A DNA stretch of 36,776 nucleotides from NCBI GenBank assembly GCA_000220375.1, contig GL982576.1:289750-326525 (forward strand). The letters are read 5' to 3'. This document shows positions 2,767 through 32,943 of the stretch, in pieces (the stretch's first letter is position 1; every line of letters starts with the position of its first letter). Both the position numbers and the translations under genes were made by a program. Below the pieces are notes generated by a model. That model made no database searches, was not told the DNA's origin, and was given only the letters and a program-made list of their open reading frames with translations. The stretch comes from Candidatus Nanosalina sp. J07AB43. Lineage in GTDB: Archaea; Nanohalarchaeota; Nanosalinia; Nanosalinales; Nanosalinaceae.

Positions 2767-3012
2767 GTGCACCAATATAACGATGTGAATTACAAGAAAC
2801 TGCTAGGACCTGTAGCTTTGTTACTTGGTTTAGTATACTTTTTTAGGCCATGGTTCCATAGCCTCATACTCAGTCTGTATGTGAATCCATTCATTTTTCA
2901 GATAGCATTGATTGTAGGAGGTTCTCTAATAGGTTACATCCTCTACTATAGAGAAAGTTTAGATAAAGAAGAAGAGCGAAGAAATGGAAGACTGGCAGAA
3001 GAGTATCTATAG
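2767..3012 (+). CDS. small two-helix membrane protein
   Basis: This 81-residue protein begins at GTG 2767; the ATG at 2765 is out of frame and hits a stop at once. It has two hydrophobic segments, about residues 11-25 and 42-60, with a short loop between them and a charged C-terminal tail (KEEERRNGR). No family is recognised. Its 3' end overlaps by 29 nt the likely ATG (2984) of the following large anchored protein, so the two are probably co-translated and may act together in the membrane. The GTG start is the weakest part of this call. Confidence 0.55.
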   Translation: MHQYNDVNYKKLLGPVALLLGLVYFFRPWFHSLILSLYVNPFIFQIALIVGGSLIGYILYYRESLDKEEERRNGRLAEEYL

Positions 3013-4352
3013 GCGGTGGGAAGCTGCGTGCTGCGGCAACAATCTTCTTTGTATTATTTGCGGTTGGAGGTGTGTTGAACACGGCATTTACAAACGTAGT
3101 TATGGCTGAGGAAGTTCAAAATGATCTGACTGAGATCGACAAACTTCCTGATATAGATAATACAAATCCTAGGATACTTCCAAGAACTGTGGCAAGCGAA
3201 TTTGCAGAGAACAGTCTGCAGGAACCACGTCACAAGCTAGGTCCAAGTGATATAGCTATAGGGGAAAACGGAACACCGTACTGGTCACATCCACTGCAGC
3301 CTGACGGGGATGTAAACACGTTTCTAATAGAGCAGAAAGGCGCAGCCTTCGCAGATATGACAACTTCAAGCGCAAACATAAGCTACAGTGAGCAAAAAAT
3401 GGACGTAGGAATAGGTATGCAAGTCTTCGACAACATCAACTGGGTTCTCAAAAAGGAGAAATACTGGGTAAACTATGAAGACCACTTTGTACTCGAACAT
3501 GAGGGAGAGAACTACATTGCAACACCCTACATAGAGTACGACTTTGAGTTCACTTTCCCTATTGTGCATACAGTGCCAGAATGGGGTGGAGTAGCCCTGA
3601 CAGACAGCAAAGGGAATGTCGAATACATCAAGGCCGAAGATGTAAGGAACAACGAGGTTCTAGAAGATCAGAGGACATATCCGTTTGATCTAGCCAGAGG
3701 ATATGTATCGGCGATGGAGTACAGAGAAGGAATCATAAACAAGTGGTTCCTGCACGAAAATCAGCTAGAGGTAGCACCTGTACCAGGATTTAACAATGAA
3801 CAGCCATTCATGATACTGACTGAAGACAACCCAGAGCTCTTCGTGGCTACAGAACCATACGGCGAAGCATCCGGACTATTCGAGATCTGGACTATAGACG
3901 CCGTGACAGGTAAATACGAAGTTTTCCGTTTAGATAGAAACCAAGGATTGATCGGGGCGAATAGAGCTGTAAACTTTGTCAGGCAGGCGAACTCCAGAGT
4001 GAACTGGGCTGATCAAGACAGCGATACAGGCTTTGCACCTATAGAACCGTTGCCAGTCATAGTTGATGACAAGCTCTACTGGCAGGTAAGGGTAGTGCCT
4101 CTTGACAGCGCAGGAATAGCCTTCACAAGCTTTGTAGAAGCCGAATCGAGCAACGTCTTCTCAGCTCAAACGGACGACGAAATAGTCGACTTCTTAGAAG
4201 GTGAACCGATAAACCAAACGGCTAATCTCACCACAGAGAACTCGACAACTCAGGAAGGAGATGTCAAGATATCAATCATAGAAAATGGGAATGTGGTAGA
4301 AACTGTTACAACAGAGACCGGAAACTTCAGCATAGATGTAACAAAGAGATGA
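2984..4352 (+). CDS. membrane-anchored extracytoplasmic protein, unrecognised, frameshifted near its start
   Basis: The intact frame after 3021 encodes a long acidic protein without a suitable start: the only in-frame starts, such as GTG 3072, fall inside a hydrophobic segment (IFFVLFAVGGVLN). An ATG at 2984 in another frame gives MEDWQKSIYRRW. Removing one G from the GGG at 3018-3020 joins it to KLRAAATIFF, restoring a short basic cytoplasmic tail, one membrane anchor or signal at about residues 14-35, and about 420 residues outside the cell. The large domain is rich in aromatic residues and in Asp/Glu/Asn. It ends in a Thr/Asn-rich region (NQTANLTTENSTTQEG) with N-glycosylation sequons, followed by a short beta-rich tail. 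I do not recognise the family. The upstream two-helix protein is its likely partner. Confidence 0.65.
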
Positions 4353-4407
4353 GTCACATCATACTCATCGCTTCAGTTTATATTCTGCAGAGATGCTTGG
4401 TGTGACA

Positions 4408-4415
4408 TTTAAAAT
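4408..4415 (+). promoter_or_regulatory. TATA box for the SWIM-domain gene
   Basis: The sequence tttaaaat lies 27 nt before ATG 4435, the typical distance for a leaderless archaeal gene. Confidence 0.5.
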
Positions 4416-4434
4416 CTGATATCCATTCAAGACT

Positions 4435-4722
4435 ATGGGAGATGATATGTCCCGGGGGCAGAGGGAGAATCTTCACAAGTGGGGGAAGGCTCGGCGCTTG
4501 ATAGACGAGGACAAGATTGAGATCAAGTTCAAGTCTGAAGACCGTTATCAGTTCAAGATTGAAGGTGACTCAACAGAGTACACAGTTGGCGTAGATATTG
4601 ATACTGGCGAAAGCTTTTGCCCTTGTCAGTTCAAAGGAGAAAACTGCAGCCATCAACTGGCAGCTCACCTATTTCTAGCTGGCATAGGAGTAGAAAACGA
4701 TAGATACAGACAAGACACCTGA
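4435..4722 (+). CDS. SWIM zinc-finger protein, 95 aa
   Basis: The C-terminal half carries the SWIM signature CxCx6CxH: Cys62, Cys64, Cys71 and His73 (FCPCQFKGENCSHQLAAHLF). The N-terminal half is a small charged alpha/beta region. SWIM domains bind zinc and usually mediate DNA or protein contacts; stand-alone archaeal versions of about this size are common in haloarchaea and their role is unknown. The start at ATG 4435 is supported by the TATA box at 4408; ATG 4447 is an in-frame alternative. It is transcribed alone. Confidence 0.75.
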   Translation: MGDDMSRGQRENLHKWGKARRLIDEDKIEIKFKSEDRYQFKIEGDSTEYTVGVDIDTGESFCPCQFKGENCSHQLAAHLFLAGIGVENDRYRQDT

Positions 4723-4826
4723 AACTTACTTCTAGTACAGAAGATTCCAGAATTAAATCACAACTGACACAGATGTATCGGACTTTCAACAAAACATATA
4801 TTCAGACGAGATTTATTCTAGATTAG

Positions 4827-5546: not shown

Positions 5547-5655
5547 GAAACCTCTATCACCTCAGAGATAATCTGGGAGTTCAAGGCTACGATCAGCCAG
5601 AATTTCCGGCATCGATCAAATTGCTGATGGTTTACATGCTACCTGTGAGTCATAA

Positions 5656-5663
5656 TATAAATA
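5656..5663 (+). promoter_or_regulatory. TATA box for the 5684 gene
   Basis: A near-perfect archaeal TATA element, tataaata, lies 28 nt before the ATG at 5684, so the transcript is probably leaderless. Confidence 0.6.
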
Positions 5664-5683
5664 TTGATTAGCTGAATGTAAAT

Positions 5684-6313: not shown

Positions 6314-6363
6314 AGACTTGGAATGATGCACAATCTTATTGATACCTGGCTCGAGCCAAGATA

Positions 6364-7128: not shown

Positions 7129-7148
7129 GTAAGTGATTAAATCTTGAA

Positions 7149-7156: not shown

Positions 7157-7164
7157 GGTATTTC

Positions 7165-7950: not shown

Positions 7951-8751
7951 TTAAACCATATCCAGCTCAGATATGGCAAGATTGAATCTATCGTTTCTGT
8001 AAAGTACTGCGCCAAATAAGATTGCGACAATGACCGGAACAATATTCAGGTAATACAAGTTCACTACACCCCAGAGAAACACAAAACTAACCATGTCATC
8101 CAGAAAGTATTCAGTATTTTCTAATCTTTCAGAAAGTCTTTCTGTATTCAGAGCTGAGTTTAAAACCAGTATAGATACAGTGCCGGAAAGTATCCACCCC
8201 GCAAAATTTGAGAGCGGAACACCGTAGAAAAAACCTCCTGAATAGTTCCAGATACCTAGTGATACCGCAGCAGGATCAAGCACAGAATCAACGGCTAACA
8301 GAGCAGCAAGGGATCCAAAAACATTCTTAACAAAGCCCTTGACTTCGAAGAGACTGATAAAGAGAACAGAGTTCAGCACCAGAGGTATGAAGAATACAGG
8401 AAGACCAATAGGGATGCCGTAAATCATTGGACCAAGCTCTACACCATAGCTAAACTCTCCGTATGGAAAACCTGTCTGGATCCCAATAAACTCTATAATA
8501 TAAGCATACAAAGTTACCGCGAGAATAGCCAGCCCTGACTTAACGTCTATCAAGGGCTTGATACCTGATATAAGAGGAAGCCTCATAACCAGTGTACCAA
8601 AGAGAACCATCAACGGGTTGAACTCAAGGAATTCTGGTAGGAAACCTTCAGCCGAAGCCACAAATCCTAGGGCTCCAAAAAGAGGAAAGATAACTGATAT
8701 CGTAAACCTATTTTCCCTGACAAGCTGTTCAAGACTATCAGGTTTATACAT
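7951..8751 (-). CDS. cruF: CruF-like carotenoid hydratase (bisanhydrobacterioruberin hydratase)
   Basis: This polytopic membrane protein of about 266 residues matches the carotenoid-biosynthesis CruF family (formerly DUF422). Polar signatures lie between helices: an FPYGEFSYG loop, PIGLPVFFIPL, and DxxLDPAAVSLGIWNYSGGFFYGVPLSNFAGW. In haloarchaea CruF hydrates the C50 carotenoid ends to give bacterioruberin. The gene follows the lycopene elongase gene with an 8-nt overlap if ATG 8751 is used; TTG 8757 is the alternative. The preceding desaturase and elongase, in the order known from haloarchaea (crtD-lyeJ-cruF), strongly support the role. Confidence 0.88.
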   Translation of the reverse strand: MYKPDSLEQLVRENRFTISVIFPLFGALGFVASAEGFLPEFLEFNPLMVLFGTLVMRLPLISGIKPLIDVKSGLAILAVTLYAYIIEFIGIQTGFPYGEFSYGVELGPMIYGIPIGLPVFFIPLVLNSVLFISLFEVKGFVKNVFGSLAALLAVDSVLDPAAVSLGIWNYSGGFFYGVPLSNFAGWILSGTVSILVLNSALNTERLSERLENTEYFLDDMVSFVFLWGVVNLYYLNIVPVIVAILFGAVLYRNDRFNLAISELDMV

Positions 8752-9573
8752 GTACAAGCACCCAAAGGCCGGAAATAGCGATCACCATACCTGTAAACGC
8801 ATTGATATACGGGAACCACCAATAGGCTCGTGAATCATCTATATCCAGATAAAATACCAGTGTGGTCAAAACCGGGTATATCAGGAATATTGTTCCCAGA
8901 TACACGCTGTGGAGTGTCATTGCCGCAGCTGACAGAATCCAGACAGCCGTTACATATCCGTACGCACCAGTCCTGCCCAGATATGTGGCAGTAGTCCGGA
9001 TTCCTGCTTCCCTGTCCGGCTTGATGTCAGGTATCGCGGAGAACGTATGCATCGACATTGTCCATAGCCAAGCACCCGCCATGACAGCAACAGGAGGAAG
9101 TGATCCACTCAACCAGGTATACGTGATAAAGAAAGGAAAAGCGTAAAGGCCGTTTGAGATAGAATCAAGGTAGGGTTTTGTCTTGAATCTAAAGGGGGGT
9201 GCACTGTACTGATAGCTTAACCCTAAAAACACCAGCATAAGAGGATAAACCCTCTGCGGCAACGACAATGCCACAGGGATCGCAGCCAGTGCTGATAGAC
9301 CTATTATGGAATCAACTATCCTTGAGGATCTGTAGCTCTCCTCTTTCTCATCTTTTTTGGGGTTTTCCTCATCAATATCTCTGTCAAAGTAATCGTTTAT
9401 TCCATACAGCATGATGTTTGCAGGTATCAAAAAGTAAAGCCCTACAGCAAGGTTGTGTAATGTGAGGAAGTTAGAGGTCTCTGAAACCCCGAATATCATT
9501 CCTAGTAGTGCTGGCCCTGCCAGATACAGCCAGAACCTTGGTCTTGAGAGCTTGAAAATATATCTTAACTCAT
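8744..9573 (-). CDS. lyeJ: UbiA-family lycopene elongase (LyeJ-like), start disrupted by one-base loss
   Basis: The protein is a UbiA prenyltransferase with about eight to nine helices, a first Asp-rich motif NDYFDRDID and a second, PDIKPDREAGI. In haloarchaea the enzyme adds C5 units to both ends of lycopene. The frame is open upstream of the first in-frame ATG (9499) and encodes a typical UbiA N-terminus, KLSRPRFWLYLAGPALLG, but has no start codon. An ATG at 9573-9571 overlaps the desaturase stop as ATGA and runs into a stop after two codons. Adding one T to the minus-strand TT at 9568-9567 gives MSLRYIFKLSRPRF in frame. I annotate this repaired start. It is the middle gene of the carotenoid operon. 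Confidence 0.85.
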
Positions 9574-11039
9574 TCCAAATCCTCTACCACCTTCTCAGCA
9601 GCATGTTCACCACTGATAAGGCACATCGGAACACCTATACCAGGATTGGTGTACTGCCCTGTATAGTACATATTCTCCATCTGTTTTGACCTTTGCTTTG
9701 GTCTAAATACAGAGGTTTGTCTCAGTGTGTGAGCTATTCCAAGCGCTGTCCCATTAAAGCTGTTGTACCTTCTCTGGAACTCTTCACCGGCAAAGATCTT
9801 TTCATATTCAATTCTTCCCCTAAGATCTGTATCGGCGTTCTCCTCAAGATCGTCAAGAATCATCTCCTTGAATCTTTGTCTGTCCTCTTCGTCTAACTCC
9901 ATCTCCGCTGCAATAGGTACAAGTACAAACATAGCTGACTTACCTTCAGGAGCTACCGCGTCATCAGTATCAGACGCGTTGCAGACATAATAGGCAGGAT
10001 TATCAGGCATTTCAGGATCTTCAAATATCTTGTCAAAGTGATCATTCCAGTCCTCAGGAAGAACCAAGGTATGATGGTCTATATTATCAAGCTCTCCTTC
10101 TACACCAAGATACATCAGGAAAGCGCCCGGAGCATAGGTTCTAGAGTTCCAGTAATCCTCGTCATAGGTAGTATACTCATCCGGTAGAAGCTCTACCTCA
10201 GTAAACGCATAATCTGCACCCGATACAACAGCATCGGCTTCGATTCTTCTGTTTTCAGTCTCGACCACGTTTTTGCCGTTCTCTCTATCAATCCTCTTGA
10301 CTTCCTCTCCTGTGGAAAACTCTGCGCCCTGCTCCTGTGCAAGCTGCTTCATACCTTCAACAACTGAATAAACGCCTCCTTCAGGATAATAAACACCCAT
10401 ATTGAAGTCGACGTGACTCATCAGATTATACAGCGCAGGAGTATTTGTAGGTGAACCCCCAAGGAAGACGAGAGTATACTGCATTACCTGCTGAAGCTTT
10501 GGATTGTCAAAATATTCTTCAACATGGTCCTGCATTTTCTTTATCAAACTGATTCCTCTGGCATTTTTCAGTACATCAAGAGACAGGTAGTCACGGAAGT
10601 TATTCCTGTCTTTTAATACAAACTCATTCATACCTATCTCATATGTCTCTTTCGACTTCTGAAGGTAGCTCTCAAAGGCTTCTTCGGCACCGTCCTCATA
10701 GGTTTCAAACAACTTGCCAGCTTTCTCAGGGTCAGCCGGTACATCCATCTGATCGCCGTCCTTGAAAAATATCCTATAGTTCGGATCTAGCCTTGTCAGC
10801 GAGTAGTAATCCTCCGGTTCGTGGTCAAATTTCCCGAAAAATCTGTCAAATATATCAGGCATCAGGTACCAAGAAGGACCCATATCAAACTTAAATCCGT
10901 CCTCTTCAAGCACAGATGCACGGCCACCAACCTGCTTATTTTTTTCAACTACCTCCACATCAAGGCCTTCATCCGCAAGAAATGAAGCAGCTGACAGACC
11001 TCCAAAACCTGCACCAACTATCACGACTTTATTGTTCAT
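9570..11039 (-). CDS. crtI: CrtI-type carotenoid desaturase (phytoene desaturase, or CrtD-like)
   Basis: This 489-residue flavoprotein has an N-terminal FAD-binding GAGFGG (residues 9-14) followed by ASFLADEGLDVEVVEKN. The C-terminal FAD/carotenoid motif TGQYTNPGIGVPMCLISGEHAAE lies near residues 455-480. It should introduce double bonds stepwise into phytoene to give lycopene, at the membrane face. The gene order desaturase-elongase-cruF matches haloarchaeal crtD-lyeJ-cruF, so this copy could instead be the 3,4-desaturase CrtD, or do both jobs, as no second desaturase is seen here. ATG 11039 has a TATA-like box 27 nt upstream. Confidence 0.9.
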   Translation of the reverse strand: MNNKVVIVGAGFGGLSAASFLADEGLDVEVVEKNKQVGGRASVLEEDGFKFDMGPSWYLMPDIFDRFFGKFDHEPEDYYSLTRLDPNYRIFFKDGDQMDVPADPEKAGKLFETYEDGAEEAFESYLQKSKETYEIGMNEFVLKDRNNFRDYLSLDVLKNARGISLIKKMQDHVEEYFDNPKLQQVMQYTLVFLGGSPTNTPALYNLMSHVDFNMGVYYPEGGVYSVVEGMKQLAQEQGAEFSTGEEVKRIDRENGKNVVETENRRIEADAVVSGADYAFTEVELLPDEYTTYDEDYWNSRTYAPGAFLMYLGVEGELDNIDHHTLVLPEDWNDHFDKIFEDPEMPDNPAYYVCNASDTDDAVAPEGKSAMFVLVPIAAEMELDEEDRQRFKEMILDDLEENADTDLRGRIEYEKIFAGEEFQRRYNSFNGTALGIAHTLRQTSVFRPKQRSKQMENMYYTGQYTNPGIGVPMCLISGEHAAEKVVEDLE

Positions 11040-11056
11040 AAGTTAACATTGGTAGC

Positions 11057-11066
11057 ATATTCTTAA
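11057..11066 (-). promoter_or_regulatory. TATA-like box for the carotenoid operon
   Basis: The minus-strand sequence ttaagaatat ends the 75-nt gap between divergent carotenoid-locus genes, with its first base 27 nt from the desaturase ATG. The gap must hold promoters for both directions. Confidence 0.45.
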
Positions 11067-11114
11067 GGTGTTTGCGAAACTAAACAAATTAGCGGAGAGT
11101 GAAACAAGAATCCC

Positions 11115-12071
11115 TTGAATAAGACGAACCTGAAGAAACCTCTGATGTTCGGTTTTACGACCCTGCTGTTCATTTCGATGCTGTACCTTTCCGACTTCGA
11201 CAGATCTATGGAAGCCCTGAGGCAAGCCCATCATCATCTGCTTGCTGCAGGATTTATGCTTGCAAATGCTCCAGTGCTGATCTATGCAAAGGTCTGGAAG
11301 AATATGCTATATATCTCAGATGTAAGCCTGTCATACAGGACTTCGCTCAAAGTTGTGCTTGCCAACACCTTTGTTAATAACCTGACACCTTTCGGAAACA
11401 TAGGAGGTGAGGCAGCTGCAACACTCTACATCTCGAAGCTCACGGACAGGAAAAAATCACAGATATTCTCAGCAGTCTTTTCAGCAAGCATCATAAACTT
11501 CACGCCTTTGATCGTTCTAGGCCTAACTGGAGGTGTACTACTAGGCTACATCAGTCTAGAGCAGATTCTAGCAGGTTTAACTATTATCGCTCTAGTATAT
11601 CTAGCGCTTGTTTACGGATCTAAAATAGGGTTTTCAGATCCTCTACCTGTCAGGGTCGAAAAGTTTCTCTCAGAGACAGCTAGTGAACTCAGTAAATTGA
11701 AAGGTAGAAAGAAAGAAGTCGGTTTTCTCCTGCTTTTGACCCATGTAGCAGCACTTTCCTCAATAGCGTCAGTACATGCTATAGGGTTTTCACTCGGTTA
11801 TAGTCTGTCGATACCTTTGTTGGTAGTTGCTGTGCCGCTGGCAAGGATTGGAAATTATGCCCCGACACCAGGAGGATCAATAGCATATGAAGCGACTCTA
11901 ACAGGCATTCTCACCTATCTATTTCCTGTACCGCTACAGAGTGCAGTTCTAATAACAGCAATATACAGAGCCATAACATACTACACAGGGATAGCTGCAG
12001 GATATATAGGAGTAAGTATGCTGGAATTTGAGGGCGAAAACCTATTTAACGGAGACCCAGGTGAAACATAA
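11115..12071 (+). CDS. YbhN/UPF0104-family (flippase-like) integral membrane protein
   Basis: This 318-residue protein has about eight helices and the family's conserved loops: NNLTPFGNIGGEAAATLY at about residues 92-110 and NYAPTPGGSIAYEATLTG near residue 255. Related domains occur in lysyl-PG synthase/flippases and in archaeal AglD, so lipid-linked transport is a reasonable guess, not proven. The start used is TTG 11115. A GTG at 11101 would join in frame only if one C of the CCC at 11112-11114 were removed, giving MKQESLNKTN. Because it lies between the desaturase and phytoene synthase genes, it may handle carotenoid or polar-lipid placement. Confidence 0.75.
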   Translation: MNKTNLKKPLMFGFTTLLFISMLYLSDFDRSMEALRQAHHHLLAAGFMLANAPVLIYAKVWKNMLYISDVSLSYRTSLKVVLANTFVNNLTPFGNIGGEAAATLYISKLTDRKKSQIFSAVFSASIINFTPLIVLGLTGGVLLGYISLEQILAGLTIIALVYLALVYGSKIGFSDPLPVRVEKFLSETASELSKLKGRKKEVGFLLLLTHVAALSSIASVHAIGFSLGYSLSIPLLVVAVPLARIGNYAPTPGGSIAYEATLTGILTYLFPVPLQSAVLITAIYRAITYYTGIAAGYIGVSMLEFEGENLFNGDPGET

Positions 12072-12073
12072 TC

Positions 12074-12553
12074 ATGGTTAGTCTTCCCAAGAGAAAGTAC
12101 ATAGTACCAACTTGGGGTTTTACAGCCTCCCTAGGCTGGGTGCTTACAATTGCAATGAGTTATGTAGGTTTCTATACGACTGAAGTACTGGTGATGTGGA
12201 CGGTTTTGATGGCTATCCCTGTAACATTTACCCTTTTACTATGGCAGGATAGTAGATCCAATAAACTACTGAACTTCTGGGCTCTAGCTGTACCTTTGCT
12301 GTTGATGGTAAACTTTCTAACGCCTTACAGCCTGTCTCTGTATAGCTACTTTCACCTTTGGATGATCTCCGGTACAGCAGGACTTTACTACACTGCTAAA
12401 AAAGTACCTTCTCCATATAATAAAGTATACAAGTATGGTGTCTACGCCTCACTGGCGGCGGTCCCCTTAGTGTTCTACAGGCCTTACTTGACGCCTGTTC
12501 CTGCGGCGGTCGTCCAAGGCGGTCCGATGCTGTACGATTACTTCAGAAACTAG
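12074..12553 (+). CDS. unknown polytopic membrane protein in the carotenoid locus
   Basis: This 159-residue protein has about five hydrophobic helices and few charged residues. It starts 2 nt after the stop of the YbhN-like gene and ends 3 nt before phytoene synthase, so the three are certainly one transcript. Its size and topology could suggest a carotenoid cyclase-like or isomerase-like membrane subunit, but I cannot see the Pro-Glu-rich motifs of the heterodimeric lycopene cyclases. Its position makes a role in carotenoid synthesis or membrane placement likely. It deserves structure-based comparison. Confidence 0.7.
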   Translation: MVSLPKRKYIVPTWGFTASLGWVLTIAMSYVGFYTTEVLVMWTVLMAIPVTFTLLLWQDSRSNKLLNFWALAVPLLLMVNFLTPYSLSLYSYFHLWMISGTAGLYYTAKKVPSPYNKVYKYGVYASLAAVPLVFYRPYLTPVPAAVVQGGPMLYDYFRN

Positions 12554-12556
12554 AAG

Positions 12557-13384
12557 GTGAAAAAATTGGATCAAGACCTGAAACAGATATTCAGCGGCAA
12601 CTCTACCTCGTACTACTACAGCAGCTTGTTCTTCCGGAAAGATGTGCGGGAGGATGTATTCAAGCTGTACGCCTATGTGAGAACTGCAGACGACTTTGTA
12701 GACGAGAAACCTCAGCAACCTGAGAAACTTGAGCAATTTAGAGACAAGACACTGGAAAACTGGAGATCGGGAGAAAGCGGTGACAAGATAGTTGATTACT
12801 TTCTAGAGGTAGCCAGAGAAAACGACTTTGAGAAGGAATGGGCAGAAGCGTTTATCGACTCCATGAAGATGGACACCAAGAAGGACGAATACGCAACCAT
12901 GGAGGAGACTCTTGAATACATCTATGGATCAGCAGAAGTAATAGGATTAATGATGGCGCGTCTTCTAGATCTTGACAGCGAATCAGAAGAATATGCCTGT
13001 ATGTTAGGCCGTTCAATGCAGTACTGCAACTTCCTGAGAGATATAGAGGAGGACTACAGACTTGGAAGACGTTACATGCCCATGGAGGAAATGGAGAGGT
13101 TTGGAATAGAAACACTTGAACCTGGAAGGGTCAATGAAGAGAAATTCAGGATATTTATGAAAGAGCAGATCAAGCAGTACTTTGAATGGCAAGAAGAGGC
13201 TGAAAAAGGCTTAAAGTACATACCTTACAGGGAGAGAGTTCCTGTAACACTGTCTTCAAGGCTATACAAATGGACTGCAAAACAGATACACTCCAACCCA
13301 ATGATCGTCTACGACAGAAAAGTTAGGCCATCAAAAACCAGGATTTCCGTAGAACTCCTGAAAGCGTTCTCGGGAATCAAGTAA
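12557..13384 (+). CDS. crtB: phytoene synthase
   Basis: This soluble all-alpha enzyme of 275 residues condenses two GGPP molecules to phytoene. Both Asp-rich magnesium-binding motifs are present: RTADDFVDE near residue 45 and NFLRDIEEDYRLGRRYMP near residue 157. The N-terminal NSTSYYYSSLFF and the C-terminal helices fit squalene/phytoene synthases. The length is normal for the family. It starts at GTG 12557, directly after the unknown membrane protein. It feeds the oppositely transcribed desaturase-elongase-CruF operon; its GGPP substrate would come from the prenyl synthase encoded at 29936. Confidence 0.92.
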   Translation: MKKLDQDLKQIFSGNSTSYYYSSLFFRKDVREDVFKLYAYVRTADDFVDEKPQQPEKLEQFRDKTLENWRSGESGDKIVDYFLEVARENDFEKEWAEAFIDSMKMDTKKDEYATMEETLEYIYGSAEVIGLMMARLLDLDSESEEYACMLGRSMQYCNFLRDIEEDYRLGRRYMPMEEMERFGIETLEPGRVNEEKFRIFMKEQIKQYFEWQEEAEKGLKYIPYRERVPVTLSSRLYKWTAKQIHSNPMIVYDRKVRPSKTRISVELLKAFSGIK

Positions 13385-15217: not shown

Positions 15218-16582
15218 TTGAACGACTTTGTCGACAGGTTCTCAGAAGAGCTGGAGGATAAAAAACAAGACATAAGAGACAGCCTGGATCAAGATTTAGG
15301 GTCAGGTTCAACTGAGAACGTCGAAAAGAGATTTCAGCAGGTTTACACATCTAGCAAAGTTGAGGAACTTGGTGAAGAAGTCAGGGTGCTAGCTACAGAC
15401 GCAGGCAGGAATGAGATGGAGCTGAAGAACAACACAAGACTCTACATAGTTCAAGCTGCAGCCGTCGATACTAAGGGAGAAATTTCGAAGTCCTTAGACC
15501 TAGATTCTGTTAAAGTATACAGACAGAGAGACTACGAGAAATTCATGCAGAGAGCCTCGGAGCTAGAGGAAGTCAATTCGATACTAGAGGCGCTGGATCA
15601 GAGGCCCGCAAGAGAAAAAACAATTATACTCATAGATGGAACGCTCCTCACCAGGCTATTAACTGTACCAGAGCCTCTGGATATATCAAAAAACCGGGAG
15701 ATAAGAGTTAAGCTTATGGATGCTTTTGGAGAGCTCATTGAACGCACACAAAACAATAGCAATATCGTACTGGCAGGTGTTTCAAAGGACTCAAACTCCA
15801 GCATACTTTACAGAAAGATAGTAGGCGACTTGCTTGAAACCAAGATCAAGAAACTTGAAACAGAAAAACTTGAATCCATAGGATTTGAAGACAAACAATT
15901 CCTATTGAAAAACTATCACAGGATAAGATACAACCCTCAAGAAATCAGGCAAAACCTTGAAAACCTCCGGAAATCCAACGCCGACCAAGAAAAAGTCAAG
16001 CAGATTGAAAAACTCGTCGAAAAATACAGAGTAAGAGTATCAGACACCGAGCTCATAGAAAGAATGACCTCAAAGCCAGGATTCACAAAACCCCTCAGAA
16101 TAGGAAAGATAAAACCTGACTTCTTTTCAGCCATCGAAAAATTCCAGCAGAACAGGGAAAACTACCTGAAAGACACTTTTCCGCAGGTCCACAATGAAGA
16201 AGGAGATAGCTTCGTAGAAAGATATCAAGACGCGATACAGAGGATTAAGGATGCGCCAGGCGTTGTTAGTACTTATTACAAGCCATCAGAAAGAGACTCA
16301 GCACTCAGAGTAGATTTACTAAACCACGATATAGACGGTACAGACCTGATGGACTGCGACAAACAGGAGTTTGTCAACATAAACAAAAAAGTACGTGAGG
16401 TTCTCAGGTTGCTGAAAAGTGGCTATGCAGGGGAGGAGATGCACAACGTATGGATTAGCCAAGCGGATAACTCGGCATCCCTGAAAAACAGCGATCTTGA
16501 AAAAATCTACAAACCTATCATATCAAAACAGTTAGACATCAACTTGAGAAATTACATGAGGAGGAGAGACAAGCGTGCCTGA
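15218..16582 (+). CDS. nurA: NurA nuclease
   Basis: NurA is the 5'-3' end-resection nuclease that works with the HerA translocase and Mre11-Rad50 at double-strand breaks. Metal-binding acidic residues are visible as Asp61 (LATDAGRNE) and Asp140 (IILIDGTLL), both after hydrophobic strands as in the RNase H-like NurA fold. The length (454 residues) is within the family range. The start used is TTG 15218, with an upstream purine-rich aaggag only 1 nt away. A GTG at 15204 would fit if one T were missing in the TTT at 15217-15219. It heads the repair operon and overlaps herA by 8 nt. Confidence 0.85.
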   Translation: MNDFVDRFSEELEDKKQDIRDSLDQDLGSGSTENVEKRFQQVYTSSKVEELGEEVRVLATDAGRNEMELKNNTRLYIVQAAAVDTKGEISKSLDLDSVKVYRQRDYEKFMQRASELEEVNSILEALDQRPAREKTIILIDGTLLTRLLTVPEPLDISKNREIRVKLMDAFGELIERTQNNSNIVLAGVSKDSNSSILYRKIVGDLLETKIKKLETEKLESIGFEDKQFLLKNYHRIRYNPQEIRQNLENLRKSNADQEKVKQIEKLVEKYRVRVSDTELIERMTSKPGFTKPLRIGKIKPDFFSAIEKFQQNRENYLKDTFPQVHNEEGDSFVERYQDAIQRIKDAPGVVSTYYKPSERDSALRVDLLNHDIDGTDLMDCDKQEFVNINKKVREVLRLLKSGYAGEEMHNVWISQADNSASLKNSDLEKIYKPIISKQLDINLRNYMRRRDKRA

Positions 16583-18182: not shown

Positions 18183-19398
18183 AGTACTGCACTTCGGGGA
18201 TACACACCTAGGGAGGAAACATCCATCCAAAATATCCAAGAAACGAGTAGAGTCCTCAATAAAGGCTTTCCGTCACGTGATCCAGAAGGCGATACAGGAA
18301 GATGTGGACTTTGTAATACATGCAGGAGACGTATTCGACACCGTGTATCCGTGGCACACTGTCATAGAGTCAGCAAAAAAAGAGCTTCAAAACCTAGAGG
18401 AAGCTGAAATACCTCTTTACTGCATCAGAGGAAACCATGACAGGAGCTTTGGACAGGGGCGAAGCCTGAAAGGCCTAGCAATTGAACATCTAACATCAGA
18501 GTACATTCACCTGATAGATCCTCAGGCCTCAGAGTTCCCACAAAACGGCTACATCGACCATGACGAGAATATCAGGGTTTACGGACTTGGATACCATGCA
18601 TCCCGCACACAGGAAATACTAAGAGAGTTTAAACCGGAGAATGAGAAGTTTAACATCCTCCTGATGCATGATTTTGTGGAAGGAGTTACACGTAGCTACT
18701 CAAACAGCATTCCGAAAGCAGATATGATAGCCGAAAAAGATCTTCAATACGTCGCAATAGGCCACGATCACGAACCAAACCCAGAACAAGTCATAAACTC
18801 CACAACCTTCTCTGCGACAGGAGGCACAGTGGATTACGACTTCAACACAACCAACTTCAGAAAAACCTTCAATATACTGGAGATAGACGAGGAAAACCAG
18901 AATATAGATGTAGACAACCATAAAGTGCCTCAGGAACTTGAGCTTAGGAAAAAAAAGTTCAAGGTAGGTCACTCACCTCAACAGATAAGAAACAAGATAG
19001 AGGATGAAATACAGGAACATAAGGAATACGCATACAAGATCAAGATACAGGGAGAGATCAGCTCAGGTCAAGAGATTCAGACACAGAAAATTGCAGACGA
19101 AGTCGAGAAAATAGACCAAGTTGTACTTGCGGATACCTTACTTGACGTCAAGACAGACGAAGTCGAGATGGCGGAGAGCAAAGGAGAGGGCTTCAATATC
19201 TATGAGCACTTGGAAGACAACTTACAGCAGAACAAGCTCGAGGAGAACTTTATTCAGATGCATGAAAGAGCGGAAAACATGCTTTCAAATGAGGAAAACC
19301 TAACAAGATCAGGTTTCAGCCTTCAGAAACAGGCAAGAAAAAATCTCAGAGAGAAAATTGACAACCAGATCTTCGGAGACATAGAAGATGAGGCTTAA
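18175..19398 (+). CDS. mre11: Mre11 nuclease
   Basis: The calcineurin-like phosphoesterase motifs appear in order: HFGDTHLGRK (Asp9, His11), VIHAGDVFD (Asp near 45), CIRGNHDR (Asn/His near 84-86), LLMHD and VAIGHDHEPN (His pairs). These bind two Mn ions for 3'-5' exonuclease and endonuclease action. The capping and Rad50-binding regions follow, giving a normal 407 residues. The gene overlaps herA by 8 nt and rad50 by 11 nt. Confidence 0.95.
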   Translation: MYKVLHFGDTHLGRKHPSKISKKRVESSIKAFRHVIQKAIQEDVDFVIHAGDVFDTVYPWHTVIESAKKELQNLEEAEIPLYCIRGNHDRSFGQGRSLKGLAIEHLTSEYIHLIDPQASEFPQNGYIDHDENIRVYGLGYHASRTQEILREFKPENEKFNILLMHDFVEGVTRSYSNSIPKADMIAEKDLQYVAIGHDHEPNPEQVINSTTFSATGGTVDYDFNTTNFRKTFNILEIDEENQNIDVDNHKVPQELELRKKKFKVGHSPQQIRNKIEDEIQEHKEYAYKIKIQGEISSGQEIQTQKIADEVEKIDQVVLADTLLDVKTDEVEMAESKGEGFNIYEHLEDNLQQNKLEENFIQMHERAENMLSNEENLTRSGFSLQKQARKNLREKIDNQIFGDIEDEA

Positions 19399-21846
19399 AC
19401 AAATACATCTAAGAAATTTCAGAAAGTTCAATAACGAAAAAATAGAATTCTCAGAGAACCTCAATCTTATAGAAGGCGAAAACAATGCAGGGAAGTCATC
19501 AGTCTTCTACGCAATCTACTTCGGCCTCACAGGAAACGCGCTAAACTTCAGATCACCGAAAGAATACATCAACTTCGATGAAAGCAAGATGATGGTGGAT
19601 ATAGAGTTCACATCAGCAGGAACGAACTACTTCATAAGAAGACACTACACACGCTCATCAGGAGGAGAATACTCAATAGGCAGAGTGAAAAACGAGGAGA
19701 GAACAATACTGGAATCCACAGAAAAAGGCTCAAAGGCAAGCGAGGTCAACAAAAAACTCTACGACGTAACAGGCCTCAACAGAAAGATCATAGAAAACGT
19801 AACATACGCCGCACAGCAGAAGTTCGTAAACCTCATAGAAGGAGGAAAGAGCCAAAAAGACGCGATGGACTACATATTTGACTTCAAAACAATAGATGAA
19901 GTAACAAAACAAGCTAAAAAAGTAATTAAAAATCGTGAAACGCAGGTAGAAAGAAAAAACGACATCAAAGAAAGACTAGAGAGAAGAGAAGAAGAACTGA
20001 ACGAACAGGAGAAACAACAAAACCAACTGCAGGAAGAAAAGGACAATTTGGAATCCGAGATCAAGGAAATAGAACAGAATCTCAAACAGACTAAGAAAAA
20101 GAAGGAGGAACTGGAAGAGAGGTTTGAGCAGTTAGAGTCGGCGAAACAATTAAGCCAGAAGCTGGAGACCAAAAAACACGTACTGGACGAAAAAAAGCAG
20201 AATCTGAGAAAGAAAAAGGCCAAGCTAGAGGAAATTGGCAAGGATAAAGAAGACATAGATGAGAAAGTCAACAAGACAAAGGAAAAGCTCGAGAAAACAG
20301 AAAGCCAACTGGAAGATATAGATAAAAAGAAAGAAAATCTTTCAGAGCTTCAACAAAAAAAGAAGTCAGCGGAAACACGTATAGAACAACTCCAAAAACA
20401 GGGAAGCGATTTAAAGCAGAAAATAGGAGAAAAGAAGGTACAGTAAATGAAAAGAGGGCTAATGTAAACAGCCTTGGACAAGATCTCTCGGTGTCAAGCA
20501 AGAAGCAGGCGGAAGAAATGCTAGAAGGCCTCCAAGAAGAGGAAGAAAAGATAAGAGATAAGATAAAGAACCTAGAGTCAGATATATCAGAGAATAAGAC
20601 TCTGTTGGAAGGTGCCAGAGAGACCTACGAAAACGGAGAATGCACAAACTGTGGGAGAAAAGTAGAGGAACCACAGAAATACAAACAGAAGATAGAAGAA
20701 CTCGAGTCCATTATTCAGGATCTCGAAGAGAACAGAGATCAAAGCTCAGAGAAGCTATCCCAAAACCTACAGAAACAGGAAAGGGTAGACCAGCTAATTG
20801 AGATGATAGGCAACGTCGAGAAAATCGAGGATGAGAAACAAGATCTTGAAGAAGAATATAAAGATCTAGATGAAAACATTAAAGACGAGAAATCCAATCT
20901 AGACGACCTAGAAGAGGGCATAAATAAGTATGAAGATCAGATCAAAAATCTAAAGCCTGATACGGTGGCGCAACAGCGTGAAGACCTTAAGAAAGACTTA
21001 AACAGGTTGGAGCGCCGGAAGGAAAAAATTGAGGACCTCAAACAGGAGATCGGAAATATGAGAGAGGGGCTTAACAAAATTGAGGAGGAAAGAGATAAAC
21101 TAAAGGAAGAGATAAGAGAAACGGGAGTAGATAAGTCCTCTGTTAATGAGGAGTACGATAAGATTCAACAGAGGATACAGAACAAGGTCAAGGAATCAGA
21201 GAAATGGAAGACACAGAAAGAGCAAAAGGAAAAGAGAATCAAACAGATCAAGGATAATCTACAAAACAGAGAGGAAAGTCTAGAGCAGAAGAAAAAGGAA
21301 ATTGAGGACATCAAAGACGAGCTCAAGGAAATTAGACAAGTTGAGGAAAGACTTGAGGAGGCAAAGGAAGCTCTGAAGGTTTACAAGAGCTCAGAGGCTG
21401 AAATGCGTGATATAAATCTACAAAGGCTTGAGAAAAAGATATTCAACTGGTACCAAGAACTCGCCGCAAAACAGGAGTTTAAACAGCTAAAGATTGACAG
21501 AGAATCCTATGAGCTACGTGGTATACCACGGAACACAAACCAAGAGCTCTCAATCTCAAACTACCAAGGGGGAGGTCAAAGAACGCTTACCGCACTTGCA
21601 TACCAGCTGGCCTTAGCAGAGATGACAGGAGCCACAGACTTTATGATGATAGACGAGCCTACAGACGCAACAGACTCGGAAAACAGGGAGAACATGCTTG
21701 AAATGATTCACGGAGCCGTCAAACAGTTTTCACAGATACTTCTTATTACGCACCACGGTGTAGGGCGTGAACAGGCAAATAACATAATCAAAATAACAAA
21801 AAAGAACTCAGAAGAAAGCAAGGTAGAATACCCTCTCAGATCATAG
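19388..21846 (+). CDS. rad50: Rad50 SMC-like ATPase, one-base frameshift in the coiled coil
   Basis: Rad50 tethers and clamps DNA with Mre11. The N-terminal lobe has Walker A GENNAGKSS (residues 30-38). A long coiled coil follows, with a zinc-hook CTNCG encoded at 20641-20655. The C-terminal lobe has YQGGGQRTLTALA (signature), MMIDEPTDATD (Walker B and D-loop) and ITHH. The first frame stops at 20444-20446. The second is open well before its first usable start (GTG 20491) and still reads as coiled coil. Adding one A to the AAAA at 20430-20433 joins them (GEKEGTVNEKRAN), giving about 819 residues, near family length. Many Rad50 hooks are CPxC; here the Pro is Thr. The break is probably artefactual. 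Confidence 0.9.
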
Positions 21847-22133: not shown

Positions 22134-22805
22134 CTACTCCCCCTTCTTTCTTCTGAGAGAATTGAAATGGTCAAGTGCCTCCCTAACATCCTTAGGGCTG
22201 ACACTTGGAAAGTTTTTCTGTATGTGATAGAACTCCGCGTAGCTTGAGTTCCAGATTGGGAATCCAGATATACACTCTCTCTCAGGGTTGTCACCAGTTC
22301 TTATTACAAAATCGATATCATCCTGTACCTCAAGGCTTGCCGAAAAATTCTCCTCAGTATGTTCTAAACCTCCAGCTTCTAGGTTTTCGCTGGCCTGTAA
22401 TATATCTTGTTTGCCTGAGTAAGATATCAGTAGGTTAACTGTTTTGCTGCCACGAGAATACTTTTGCTCGATATCTGCCAGCTTGTCCTGTAGATACTGT
22501 GGCAGCGCTCCAGGGTTTGTTGAAGCCCAATTAATACTGTATTCTTCCTCATCCAGAAACTCTCCTATCTCATCAATATTGCTTTCCAAGAGGTCAAATA
22601 AGGTCTCAAGCTCTTCCTCATCCCTCTTCAGATTCTCCTCAGATAACAGGTAGAAAGTAATAGAATCTACATTCTCAGAGTAGTCATTCAACGATTGGGT
22701 TACCTGTTTTACAGTTTGCTTTGCGTTCTTGTAAGCCTTTCTTCTGCTTATTCCCTTTTGCTCTGCGTACCTTCTGTTCCCGTCAGGTATTACTCCTACA
22801 TGCAT
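22134..22805 (-). CDS. uppS: cis-prenyltransferase (polyprenyl diphosphate synthase, UppS-like)
   Basis: This 223-residue enzyme condenses isopentenyl diphosphate units in cis onto an allylic primer, making the long polyprenyl carrier used for protein glycosylation. Family motifs are the N-terminal VIPDGNRRYA with catalytic Asp8, FYLLSEENLKR near residue 52, and RTGDNPERECISGFPIWNSSYAEFY near 168, which binds the diphosphate. The protein is slightly short, with a charged end. It starts at ATG 22805, abutting the stop of the geranylgeranyl reductase gene, which implies coupled expression. Confidence 0.88.
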   Translation of the reverse strand: MHVGVIPDGNRRYAEQKGISRRKAYKNAKQTVKQVTQSLNDYSENVDSITFYLLSEENLKRDEEELETLFDLLESNIDEIGEFLDEEEYSINWASTNPGALPQYLQDKLADIEQKYSRGSKTVNLLISYSGKQDILQASENLEAGGLEHTEENFSASLEVQDDIDFVIRTGDNPERECISGFPIWNSSYAEFYHIQKNFPSVSPKDVREALDHFNSLRRKKGE

Positions 22806-23916
22806 TCAATTACTCCCTGCTGTATTCATGTCCTCAAAGTAGCTTTTTAATCTCCCTTGAAGCAACATCGCCTTCACCTGCCCTAGGCTGAACAGTGTCG
22901 AGGGCTGGTCCATATGAACACCTATCTTCCCCTGAAACAACTTAAGCGCCGGCTTTTGAACTATACCGGGCAACGAGTAAAACTTTTCTATCAGGCGACC
23001 AAGCATTATCTCGTTGGAGAGCTCTGAACGCCACTCATCTTCGTACAGCTGGAGGCTCGAAGGATCATCTATATCTATACATTCAGAGGCTATATCACTG
23101 CATCTCATCCCATAGAGTATACCTCCGCCTGTAAATGGCTTGGTCTGTGCAGCCGCATCACCTACAAGAAAAACCCTTTCAGAGGTCACCGAGTCAGGTG
23201 GTCCAACAGGTATAGCTCCCGCACACACATCTTTCTTGTCATCCACGTCAAACCTGTTCTGCAATACTATCCAGCCACTCCATAGGATTCTCACCTTTTG
23301 GAACTGCTGCCCCGTACTCAACTGAGTCACCTCTTGGAATTCTCCATCCAAAGAAGCTTGGAACATCCAATGTAACATCAACAAAGTCAGAGGAATCCTC
23401 TTCATCAGTAAAACAGAGTACTCCCTGATAGAAATGATCTGGCTCGGGCAAACCTGTTTCATCTCTTACTTTTGATGAAGCCCCGTCACATCCCGCAACC
23501 ATCTTAGCCTCATAGGATGCGCTGTCGGTATCTACGACAACCCTATCTTCCTTTTCTTCAACAGATTCTACATTTTCACCTAGGGCTATTTCAGCACCTG
23601 AGTTCTGGGCTTGCAATGCTTTTTTCTTATCAAGCTCAATCCTATCTATAACATATGAAACTTTTTCATCCCTGAAAAACCTGTACTTACCGTTTAAGTG
23701 GAAATCTGCTCCATTTATGCCGTTCTGCAATATTTCTTCGAACTCATCATCTGACAGAAAGTCTCTAATATCAGGAGATACGTGACCGGAGCAAGCAAGA
23801 GGTTCTCCAATAGACTCGCTCCTCTCAATAACAAGTACATCTACATCCTTGTTGGAGAAACGCTTGGCGAGTTGAGAACCTACAGGACCTGCTCCAACCA
23901 CGATCAGATCTCTCAA
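22806..23916 (-). CDS. geranylgeranyl reductase family flavoprotein, one-base frameshift
   Basis: The N-terminal part has GAGPVG (residues 8-13) for FAD, the EPLACSGHVS cysteine motif of archaeal geranylgeranyl reductases and GCDGASS. The C-terminal part, in another frame, has GPPDSVTSERVFLVGDAAAQTKPFTGGGILYG, the second FAD motif. The first frame ends at TGA 23250-23248; the second picks up at NRFDVDDKKD. Removing one base within 23251-23275, for instance in the minus-strand TT at 23264-23263, rebuilds one protein of about 369 residues. It saturates isoprenoid chains of ether lipids or polyprenols. The start is TTG 23916 with an aggtg Shine-Dalgarno-like element. The ferredoxin gene 16 nt upstream likely encodes its electron donor. 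Confidence 0.85.
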
Positions 23917-25885: not shown

Positions 25886-26075
25886 AACAAACAAATTTAC
25901 TGCACCTTTAAGAAATAACTTGACCGGGCTACAGAAGCCTAGTCCATATTACTCAACAAGTCTGTTTCTAACTTTCAGGACCTGAAAACTATTTGCAGCA
26001 GTAATCTCGCTGCCGTGCAACCATACCTCTAAAATACTTCTGATGCAATATCTTGTTCTAAGAGGTTCAAAAAGT

Positions 26076-27663
26076 ATGGATGAGAGACCTGTCTTCTGGA
26101 GCGATCAGCTAGCATTTGGAACAAGAAAAAAGTTTGAAGATGAAGAAGAATATGTCTGTGCATCAGGAGTTTCTCCATCAGGAGTTGTACACGCCGGAAA
26201 CTTCAGAGAAATAATAACCACAGACTTTGTCGTGAAATCCTTGAAGCATCAAGGCGAAGATGTAAAGTTTATTTACTCGTGGGATGACTACGATCGGTTT
26301 CGAAAGGTACCGGAAGGGGTTCCTGAAAGCTTCGAAAAACACATCGGGAAGCCTCTAGTCGAGGTGCCTGACCCACAGGGATGTCATGAGAGCTACGCAA
26401 AACACTACGAAGAAAAGCTGGAGAACCAGCTTGAAGACATGCACGTAGACATAAACTTCATCAGACAGGCTGAAAACTTCAGAAACGGAGAATACGCAGA
26501 TCTTATCAAGAAAGGACTGGAAAAGAGATCGGAAATCAAACAGATATTGGACAAGTACAGAAAAGAGCCTCTCGAAGAACCTTACTACCCTGTACACGTG
26601 TACTGTACAGAATGTGGTAAGGACTTCACAGAGGTCAAATCCTGGGATGGTTCTTACATGTTAGAGTACCACTGCAACGAATGCGGTGAACAGAGAGAGA
26701 TAAACTTCAAACAGGAGGGAAACGTGAAGCCTCCATGGCGTATAGACTGGCCGATGAGATGGAAGTACGAACAGGTAAACTTTGAGCCAGCCGGCAAAGA
26801 GCACTCGGCCGCAGGAGGATCGCGAGACACTGGAAACGAACTATCGGAGAAAATATACGACAAAGAACCACCAGTACACCAGATGTACGAGTTCGTAACT
26901 AAAGACGGATCCAAGATATCCTCAAGTCAGGGAGAAGGAGTTTTCACACTTTCAGAGCTAAAAGACATATACTCACCTGAGATAATTAGATTTCTGTTCT
27001 CAGAGACCAAGCCAAACAAGGCCTTTGAGATACCTTTTGAGTCAGAGGAAGTCATACAAATATATGACAGATTTGACAGATACGAGGAAGACTACTTTGA
27101 AGACTCTGAGGACGACAAAGACACAAGACACCGTGAAAGAGTATACGAACAGGCAGCAGTAGAAGTGCCAGAAAATCAGCCTGTAAGAATACCTTTCAAG
27201 CATGCTGCCTTTGTGGCACAGACAGTTCCTGAGGAGGAATGGAAAACCAATGGAGTAAAATCACTCAAACGCACGGGACATGCACCAGACAGCCTAGACA
27301 GAGATGACAAAAACAGGGTTGTCAGCCGCCTTGAAAGAGCAAAGGAATGGGCCAGGAAGCTACGCACCTGAAAAGTACGTGTATGAGATAAACTGGGATG
27401 GAGATCCTCAAAGTCTAAACATGGAGCAGCAAGACGCAGTGAAGGCCATGAGGAATCGGCTGGAAAATCGGTCTTTTGAGGGCTCAGATGAACTCGATGA
27501 CATGCTTTATACTGTCGCCGAAGAATCAGACTTGAGTACAGGAGAGTTCTTCCAGACAGCTTACAGAGCGCTTCTAGGACGTGAAAACGGTCCAAGGCTA
27601 TCTACTCTGATAGTATCCATAGGACAAGATCAAACCACCCAAATACTTCAGAAACTTGTATGA
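26076..27663 (+). CDS. lysS: class I lysyl-tRNA synthetase, one-base frameshift before the C-terminal domain
   Basis: Class I LysRS charges tRNA-Lys in most archaea. The HIGH-like HAGNF is at residues 39-43, a zinc-binding CTECG and CNECG pair lies in the middle and the KMSKS-like KISSSQG at about 279-285. The first frame ends at TGA 27371 after about 431 residues, too short. The C-terminal anticodon-binding part (YAPEKYVYEINWDG...) continues in the next frame to TGA 27661-27663. Removing one base in 27349-27359 (for example a G of GGG at 27349-27351) joins them into about 529 residues, the family length. ATG 26076 fits the family N-terminus (MDERPVFWSD) better than ATG 26043. It overlaps the rhomboid gene as ATGA. 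Confidence 0.9.
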
Positions 27664-29455: not shown

Positions 29456-29545
29456 GGTACTTGCCAAAGATCAGATGTGCAACCGTATTAAACCATTCGA
29501 ACCTAGGGAACCGCTTTTATTACTAGAGACTGAACCTTCGATAAC

Positions 29546-29935: not shown

Positions 29936-31009
29936 TTACTTTTCCCTTTCCAAACAGAATATTGTCATCTTCTGCAAAAAATCCTTCGAATCCTCTTCTA
30001 GATCAAGTTTCTCAATCATCTCTGAGGCCTCTTCAGCTAATGCCTCCATCCGTTCATGGACATCGGATTTCACGTTCTTCTCCCGGATTAAGTGCTTAAT
30101 TTGTTCTCTTTCCTCATCTGTCATGTCTGTACCAAGCATCTCCCTGACCTTTTCCTCCTTGTCATCAGAGAGCCTCTCAAGAAGCTTTAGCCTGTGAAGA
30201 GTTTTTTTGTCTTCATCAAGATCTGATCCTATGTCTTCTCCAATTTTTTCCTCGTCCCCAAATAATCCAAGCTCATCGTCCTTTAGCTGGAATATAGTTC
30301 CTATCTTCTCTCCTATGTTGTAAAGTTTCTTTCTTTCGTTTTTGTCAACGTCTGCCATAATTGCACCGGCTTTCATAGGCAGTGAGAAGGTGTAACGAGC
30401 TGTCTTTGTCCTGTAGAGATCGAGTATTTCATCTTCAGATGGTTCGTCAGAAGAGTAACCTGAGTAAATATCAACCTGTTCCGCCAGTCCCACATTTGAG
30501 AATTCACGGAAAACAAGCTCCTGAATATTTGACTTTGGGTCCTGTGGTACCTGAAGAGACGACAACACGTTTTGGCCAAGGAAAAATGATACGTCTCCAC
30601 CTGCCAGAGCCATGCTGATTCCAAAGTGTTTTCTCTCTTCAATCCCTTCTTTGTCAGCCAAGTCTCTGTACTGCTTCTGAAACGTTTTCATACCTCTTCT
30701 GCGCAGGTCCTTATCAATTATATCATCGTGCATCAAAATACCGGTGTGAAGTAATTCAACTGCAGCACCTGCCTTTACAGCGCTATCATGATGATCACCG
30801 TTGTAGAACTTGTTGATGATGACGACAAGGGTTCCACGAACCATCTTACCCTCCTTCACCATCTCCTGAAGTCTTTTTCTAACGTCTTTTCTCCACCGGC
30901 CTTGTGTACCTTCTTCCTCCCATTCATCAAGAAAACCGTCAAGGAAAGAAGATATTTCCTTTTTATGGCGGCCTATCTCCTCCAATATCTGTTCTCTTTC
31001 AGAGGCCAT
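29936..31009 (-). CDS. idsA: trans-polyprenyl diphosphate synthase (GGPP/farnesyl synthase)
   Basis: The enzyme builds C15-C20 prenyl diphosphates from isopentenyl and dimethylallyl diphosphate. The first Asp-rich motif is HDDIID at residues 94-99, followed by RRRGMKTFQ; the second is LKDDELGLFGD near residue 240 with KKTL after it. The C-terminal third is a long charged helical region, giving 357 residues, on the long side for the family. The product feeds ether lipids, phytoene synthase (12557) and the cis-prenyltransferase (22134). The start ATG 31009 is clear. Confidence 0.9.
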   Translation of the reverse strand: MASEREQILEEIGRHKKEISSFLDGFLDEWEEEGTQGRWRKDVRKRLQEMVKEGKMVRGTLVVIINKFYNGDHHDSAVKAGAAVELLHTGILMHDDIIDKDLRRRGMKTFQKQYRDLADKEGIEERKHFGISMALAGGDVSFFLGQNVLSSLQVPQDPKSNIQELVFREFSNVGLAEQVDIYSGYSSDEPSEDEILDLYRTKTARYTFSLPMKAGAIMADVDKNERKKLYNIGEKIGTIFQLKDDELGLFGDEEKIGEDIGSDLDEDKKTLHRLKLLERLSDDKEEKVREMLGTDMTDEEREQIKHLIREKNVKSDVHERMEALAEEASEMIEKLDLEEDSKDFLQKMTIFCLEREK

Positions 31010-31102
31010 ACGGAATGATTATCGAGTAAACTCTTTAGTTAATAAGCCATTTTTCTACATATAACCAAAGCTTATACGTACCCGATTCAAAAATTACATT
31101 AT

Positions 31103-31108
31103 AGGTGA
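31103..31108 (+). promoter_or_regulatory. Shine-Dalgarno-like site of the ABC transporter gene
   Basis: The motif aggtga lies 8 nt before ATG 31117, a good ribosome binding site. This contrasts with the leaderless starts elsewhere and implies a transcript with a 5' leader. Confidence 0.5.
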
Positions 31109-31116
31109 ATTGAAAA

Positions 31117-31797
31117 ATGGCTGTAATCAACGTAGATGGTCTAGAGAAAAGTTTTGGCGATGTCAACGCCTTAAATGGAGTGGAACTTGAGGTCAAAAAA
31201 GGAGAGATCGTAGGTGTATTAGGTCCAAACGGAGCCGGAAAATCATCTCTGATGAAAGCACTAACAGGACAGCTCGAGTATGACTCAGGCAACGTATCCG
31301 TTCTTGGAAGAGATCCTGTAAAAGAGCCTGTGGAGGTTAAGAAACGTATCGGAGCTCTTCCAGAAAGAGAAGATCCTCCAAGCTTTCTAACAGGCAGTGA
31401 ATACTTCGAGTTTGTATCAGACGTACGCGAGACAGATATTGAATCCGATAGATGGATTGAGAAGCTGAACCTGAAAGGTAAGCTGAACAAGATGACTCAG
31501 GATCTCTCAAAGGGAGAGAGACAGAAATTGATGATATCACAGGCATTCTTCCATGATCCCGACCTAGTGTTTGTAGACGAACCCCTAGTTAACCTTGACC
31601 CTGTTATACAGGAGCGTGTAAAGGAACTCTTTGAGGAGAAAAGAGAGAACGGGGGCACAATATTCCTATGTACGCACGTAATATCTCTTGCAGAAGAGCT
31701 ATGTGATAGAGTGTTCTTCCTGAAGGACGGAGAGATAGTCGAAGAGATAGAAGACGTAGACAATCTCAAAGACAAGTTCCTTGACTCCCAAGAATGA
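31117..31797 (+). CDS. ABC transporter ATP-binding protein
   Basis: The ATPase subunit is 226 residues long. Walker A is GPNGAGKSS (36-44), the signature is LSKGERQKL near residue 130, Walker B is LVFVDEPLVNLDP near 150, and the H-loop is CTHV near 187. It is nearest to the export-type ABC-2 ATPases. It overlaps the permease gene by 4 nt. Its substrate is unknown. Confidence 0.92.
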   Translation: MAVINVDGLEKSFGDVNALNGVELEVKKGEIVGVLGPNGAGKSSLMKALTGQLEYDSGNVSVLGRDPVKEPVEVKKRIGALPEREDPPSFLTGSEYFEFVSDVRETDIESDRWIEKLNLKGKLNKMTQDLSKGERQKLMISQAFFHDPDLVFVDEPLVNLDPVIQERVKELFEEKRENGGTIFLCTHVISLAEELCDRVFFLKDGEIVEEIEDVDNLKDKFLDSQE

Positions 31798-32943
31798 TAC
31801 GCAAGATGATAAAGGAGGAGTGGCGAAGAAACTCCCGCCTTTACAGAGGCAGAAGCTTCGCTCTCTTTCCAGCAGTGATATTCCTGTTCTCTCTTGGCTG
31901 GAACTACATGGTGGTGAACTTCTCAACCCTCAGCTACCCGATGATAGGCAACTCACTTGCAGCCATAGCAGGGTTAATGGGTGTGGCAGTAGGCCTATCC
32001 GGTTTCTCAGGCAAAGACGCATTCAGAAACGTACTAGGTGATACGAACTACATAGTATTCTCCAGCCATACACTACCTGTATCCAAGAGAAAGCTCTACC
32101 TAGAGTTCTTCATAAAAGATACCTTTTTTTACATGTTCCTAGTCTTAATACCTCTTTCACTGGGTTTCCTAATACCTACAAACTTTGCTATACTGCCATC
32201 CTTACTTGACGCGGCCGCATTATTCACTCTAGGATTAATGTCATCGGCCCTGGTGGCACTAAGCTCGCTTACACTTCCATCTCTGAACATAGTAAACTAT
32301 GGAAATATTGATATACTTGATCCTGTTGCCGATAAATCAGTTGTCGATATATTCAGATCCTCCGGAGGCTTTCTCAAGATACTGTTCTCCCTTGGTGTAC
32401 TGAGCTTTTTCTACTGGGTAATGGTTCTGAACTTCCCGCTTGCATCAATATTCCTTGAAAACCCTCTGCTTTCATTCAGTATACTCATAGGGCTGATAAA
32501 CCTTTCAATCTACAACTGGCTAAATAAGTTTGACTCACTGGAGACATACAGCTATATACCCTCTAGACAGCCTTTCTATAGCACACTCCAAACAAATAGC
32601 CTACCTCTCCCTAGCACTGCCGGTATCATTCGTAATGGTTCTAGCATCGGCCCTAATCTACCAAGGACAGATCCTGCTCTCACTGATTACCGCGGCCTCA
32701 ACAACCGTTTACGGAATGGCTGTAGCTGTCAGAGTACTAGGATTAAACCCTAACCAAAGCCTATTTCACGCAGATATTTTCCTGAAGTATATTCTTGGAA
32801 TGGGAGCGGTGACAGTTCCTCTGCTTTACATGTCGATAATCTATAGTGAGAGGTTTCTGTTCCACGTGCTGGCTGTATGCGGGCTGGGGCTCATGGCCGG
32901 ATCCTTTGTCCTTCTTAGGACTCAGAGAGACGAGCTCAGCTAG
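31794..32943 (+). CDS. ABC transporter permease (ABC-2-like), one-base frameshift
   Basis: A hydrophobic membrane protein with about ten to twelve helices forms the permease partner of the ATPase. The first frame runs to SLETYSYIPSRQP and then becomes unlike a membrane protein, ending at 32753. The next frame continues with DSLSIAHSKQIAYLSLALP and further helices to TAG 32943. Removing one C from the CCC at 32559-32561 gives TYSYIPLDSLSIAHSKQ, a smooth join, and about 382 residues. I annotate the merged gene. The substrate is unknown. Confidence 0.8.

Follow-up and report, generated by a model that had tools for sequence, protein, structure and literature searches.

Within 36,776 nucleotides of the Candidatus Nanosalina sp. 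J07AB43 assembly, several genes that would be expected to be indispensable change reading frame part-way along their length. This raises the question of whether the single-base shifts are errors in the deposited sequence, real mutations in the genome, or signs of an organism that changes reading frame as a matter of course. The whole stretch analysed here (G000:C7:289750-326525) is referred to as the window. The source assembly, G000, comprises 1,227,157 bases in 7 contigs, with 82.66% completeness and 2.58% contamination. Relatives in the Nanosalinaceae served as references, several of them available as one-contig genomes at 95-99% completeness. The genes of the window were compared with intact orthologues having uninterrupted frames, using a dynamic-programming protein-to-DNA aligner that permits single-base shifts.

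Genes of the window

The original prediction was that six genes in the window each carry a one-base shift. Frameshift-aware alignment to the relatives bore this out for five of them, the exception being the lycopene elongase. Intact versions of the genes were sought in the related genomes, and the orthologues found there continue in one frame across the shift sites. The six genes are as follows.

2767..4352, + strand, membrane protein gene; split, one base missing within about 2965-3067
8744..9600, - strand, lycopene elongase (UbiA family, PF01040); conserved frame intact
19388..21846, + strand, rad50; in two frames, one base missing within about 20420-20444
22806..23916, - strand, geranylgeranyl reductase gene; split, one extra base within 23250-23265
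26043..27663, + strand, class I lysyl-tRNA synthetase (lysS); split, one extra base within 27357-27360
31794..32943, + strand, ABC permease gene; split, one extra base within 32556-32577

All aligned relatives agree on the sign of the shift in lysS. PF01921 is found in the first piece and PF19269 in the second, leaving the catalytic and the anticodon-binding parts of LysRS in different frames. LysRS of the family relatives occupies a single frame of approximately 530-560 amino acids, except for two copies, one lying at the edge of a contig and the other containing an in-frame TAA. In a genome collection the nearest named relative is Candidatus Nanohalarchaeota bin NHA29, with 75% identity in LysRS, which makes the source of the window a nanohaloarchaeon. 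The identity of LysRS is lower at the C-terminus, equally so among the relatives, and this is normal for the family. For the ABC permease, nine relatives with open frames of 355-431 amino acids span both pieces and all give the same sign, the closest of them confining the shift most tightly, to 32556-32562. The two pieces of rad50 are both covered in alignment by L024 (793 amino acids) and L025 (795 amino acids), and those of the geranylgeranyl reductase gene are matched by five relatives with open frames of 355-368 amino acids.

NurA-, HerA-, Mre11- and Rad50-like genes, named from their ORF translations and from the Rad50 relatives, follow one another on one strand at 15218-21846 as a complete archaeal end-resection operon. 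Near the geranylgeranyl reductase gene are polyprenyl diphosphate synthase-like (29936-31009) and undecaprenyl diphosphate synthase-like (22134-22805) genes, both named by eye, which suggests an isoprenoid gene group local to this region.

The membrane protein gene, for which a Pfam search returned no match, is the most loosely placed of the five. Three relatives (L073, L074 and L075) indicate the missing base, and the continuous frames of 509-535 amino acids in L073 and L074 span both pieces with one -1 event; the position of the shift is loose because conservation is poor there. The G001 copy of this protein (L072) is a frame of 429 amino acids that likewise starts only downstream of the shift site.

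The lycopene elongase showed no frameshift event against three relatives (L065, L066 and L067), with which it is collinear, its frame being open from about 9574-9598 to 8750. At 9499-9600 the conserved N-terminal frame has no ATG, GTG or TTG start, and the same is true of L067; in the two other relatives a TTG start overlaps the desaturase stop. This gene is part of a carotenoid cluster at 7951-13384, which also includes a carotenoid hydratase-like protein, phytoene desaturase and phytoene synthase (assigned by eye, except for UbiA) and which looks like the haloarchaeal bacterioruberin pathway.

Shift rate in this genome and its relatives

The genome-wide count was made by comparing the ORFs of each genome with other genomes by tblastn and counting the cases in which one protein matched side by side in two reading frames on a single strand. 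For G000 the sample was 437 kb, made up of the window, nineteen further 20 kb stretches from its contig and a twentieth from contig 5; stretches of G010, G011, G005 and G001 were used for comparison. This automatic count gave G000 17 shift sites over 187 kb of conserved coding sequence, or 9.1 per 100 kb, and the membrane-protein site, detected with other relatives, brings the total to 18. G010, G011 and G001 have 7, 4 and 3 sites in 289, 224 and 145 kb, respectively (1.8-2.4 per 100 kb), so that the rate in G000 is roughly four to five times theirs. Support from at least two references exists for 10 of the 17 sites in G000, compared with none in the 658 kb of G010, G011 and G001. The window holds 5 of the 18 sites against 2.0 expected at the genome-wide rate, a clustering that is not significant (overall dispersion P = 0.14). 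In-frame internal stops are also somewhat more frequent in G000 (13.6 per 100 kb) than in the relatives (2.2-7.8 per 100 kb), but this count includes stops regardless of reference number and, at the ends of genes and the edges of shifts, was too noisy to be used. Plain ORF lengths did not differ between the genomes and were uninformative, and viral contigs were scanned without result.

One further assembly behaves like G000. G005, which belongs to another genus and is in 3 contigs at 79% completeness, has 10 sites in 95 kb (10.6 per 100 kb), 8 of them with at least two references. Since G000 and G005 are of different genera, share few contigs and low completeness, and show the same excess, the manner of assembly is indicated, and the two would appear to have been sequenced alike.

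The background in the other relatives, where each shift is backed by a single reference, indicates that some apparent shifts stem from divergence or real change. It is therefore conceivable, if unlikely, that a few of the sites in G000 are real, whether as variants within the population or as genes that are truly split, amid a majority of artefacts. The membrane protein would fit this reading, being poorly conserved at its site and having in G001 a counterpart that starts only past it. Against this, for four of the five sites in the window two or more intact relatives agree on the sign and place the shift narrowly.

Besides LysRS and Rad50, the shifted genes in G000 encode EF-2, ribonucleotide reductase, GlyRS, MetRS, V-ATPase subunit I, TrkH, an aminotransferase and a xylose isomerase-like barrel protein. 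Searches of G000 for a second full copy covered EF-2, GlyRS and LysRS and recovered the split copy only, LysRS occurring at a single place; each of the three is in one frame in G008, G010 and G011. EF-2 is split in G005 as well, at a different site from that in G000. The G005 gene (G005:C3:900142-903783) has an open frame of 1291 amino acids with approximately 500 additional residues around residue 42 that may represent an intein located at the GTP-binding loop, and its C-terminus is frameshifted too.

DPANN archaea are symbionts with reduced genomes in which gene loss occurs, and the lineage of G000 belongs to such a group. The shifts could thus be read as real mutations that mark recent pseudogenes in a decaying genome. 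We consider this very improbable. EF-2, LysRS, GlyRS and MetRS cannot all be dispensed with, and a living cell could not have these three synthetases and EF-2 as pseudogenes. Nor do the sequences past the shifts look like those of decaying genes. At the window shifts, substitutions on both flanks fall mainly on third codon positions once the frame is restored, so selection still acts on the downstream parts, and no decay after these shifts was found from the codon positions of substitutions. The closed relatives, moreover, have no comparable wave of shifts.

Sequence at the shift sites

The direction of the shift is mixed across the 18 sites of G000, with an extra base at 11 and a missing base at 7. 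It had been proposed that the shifts fall mostly in short homopolymers, and homopolymers are where indels of nanopore and 454 sequencing occur most often. This did not hold: runs of at least three bases occur at 8 of the 18 sites (8.4 expected), runs of at least four at 2 (2.7 expected) and runs of at least five at 1 (1.0 expected), and the lysS interval is without any run of three. Because the sites meet runs no more often than chance would have it, a homopolymer mechanism is unsupported. The missing excess speaks against error of the nanopore or 454 type, but not against error as such.

No 4-, 5- or 6-mer was enriched at the shift sites after family-wise correction. Two candidate motifs were rejected, namely ACCT/AGGT, which might have reflected an influence of modified bases on base calling (8 against 3.2 expected; family-wise P 0.50 for 4-mers), and GCAACA, the best 6-mer (family-wise P 0.16). 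A slippery heptamer of the form X_XXY_YYZ, read in the zero frame, is present at 1 of 17 sites, where 0.44 would be expected.

These observations bear on the possibility, also raised at the outset, that a natural ribosomal frameshift mechanism lets the organism read through many shifted genes. In its favour, essential genes are broken and yet their downstream parts look functional, and the sole slippery heptamer, A_AAA_AAG at L079 near 139, could serve a -1 shift. Programmed frameshifting would, however, require the sites to have a signal in common and to shift one way only, and it is disfavoured here because both +1 and -1 shifts would be needed, at sites without a common motif and with a single slippery heptamer among 17 of them. 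The frames are uninterrupted at the same positions in the relatives, and G005, of a different genus, has an equal excess with EF-2 split elsewhere. Only one case of -1 programmed frameshifting has been reported in archaea (PMC8211752), that of the alpha-L-fucosidase of Saccharolobus solfataricus. G000 resembles it in having archaeal genes in two overlapping frames. It differs from it in that 16 of 17 sites have no slippery heptamer, the shifts go in both directions, many unrelated housekeeping genes are affected and the relatives are without the sites. We therefore regard such a mechanism as extremely improbable, and the same applies to the broader idea of a lineage that tolerates dozens of frameshifted essential genes through ribosomal or transcriptional realignment that is frequent and goes either way. 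If true, a natural mechanism would overturn views of translation accuracy, but the evidence does not support it.

Origin and consequences of the shifts

Very probably, judging from the sequence comparisons, the shifts are erroneous insertions and deletions of single bases left behind in the consensus of a metagenome assembly that was polished too little. The consensus of such an assembly could keep random single-base indels in both directions, and these would cut genes into two frames in the deposited sequence while the genes most likely remain intact in the living cell. If so, the DNA of the cell, and the reads, would have intact genes. Error in an environmental assembly, the explanation that had been favoured from the start, is strongly supported by a rate that is genome-wide and raised over that of the relatives, by breaks in indispensable genes, and by mixed signs at sites that share no motif. 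Random indels in both directions, spread over the genome, lying in indispensable genes that are intact in relatives and in frames that are under selection, point to consensus errors. The shifts are thus almost certainly not a genuine biological feature.

The assembly is probably a long-read one. Watson and Warr reportedly described, in 2019, gene-fragmenting indel errors in long-read assemblies. Such indels are a known failing of these assemblies (PMC12007338). Long-read assemblies of bacteria and archaea (Kastor, PMC12007338) share with G000 scattered single-base indels, genes in two pieces, few long contigs, low apparent completeness and intact references, whereas the 18 sites of G000 are without the homopolymer excess. 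A literature search on nanohaloarchaea, nanopore and frameshift found no paper.

If the rate holds, this public archaeal genome would contain false gene breaks numbering very roughly a hundred, a figure that takes 9.1-9.9 sites per 100 kb over approximately 1 Mb of coding DNA and from which the background of about 2 per 100 kb has not been subtracted. The main import of this result is as a warning, as false breaks lower the completeness score of a genome and can lead to mistaken claims of gene loss, split genes or recoding in the nanohaloarchaea.
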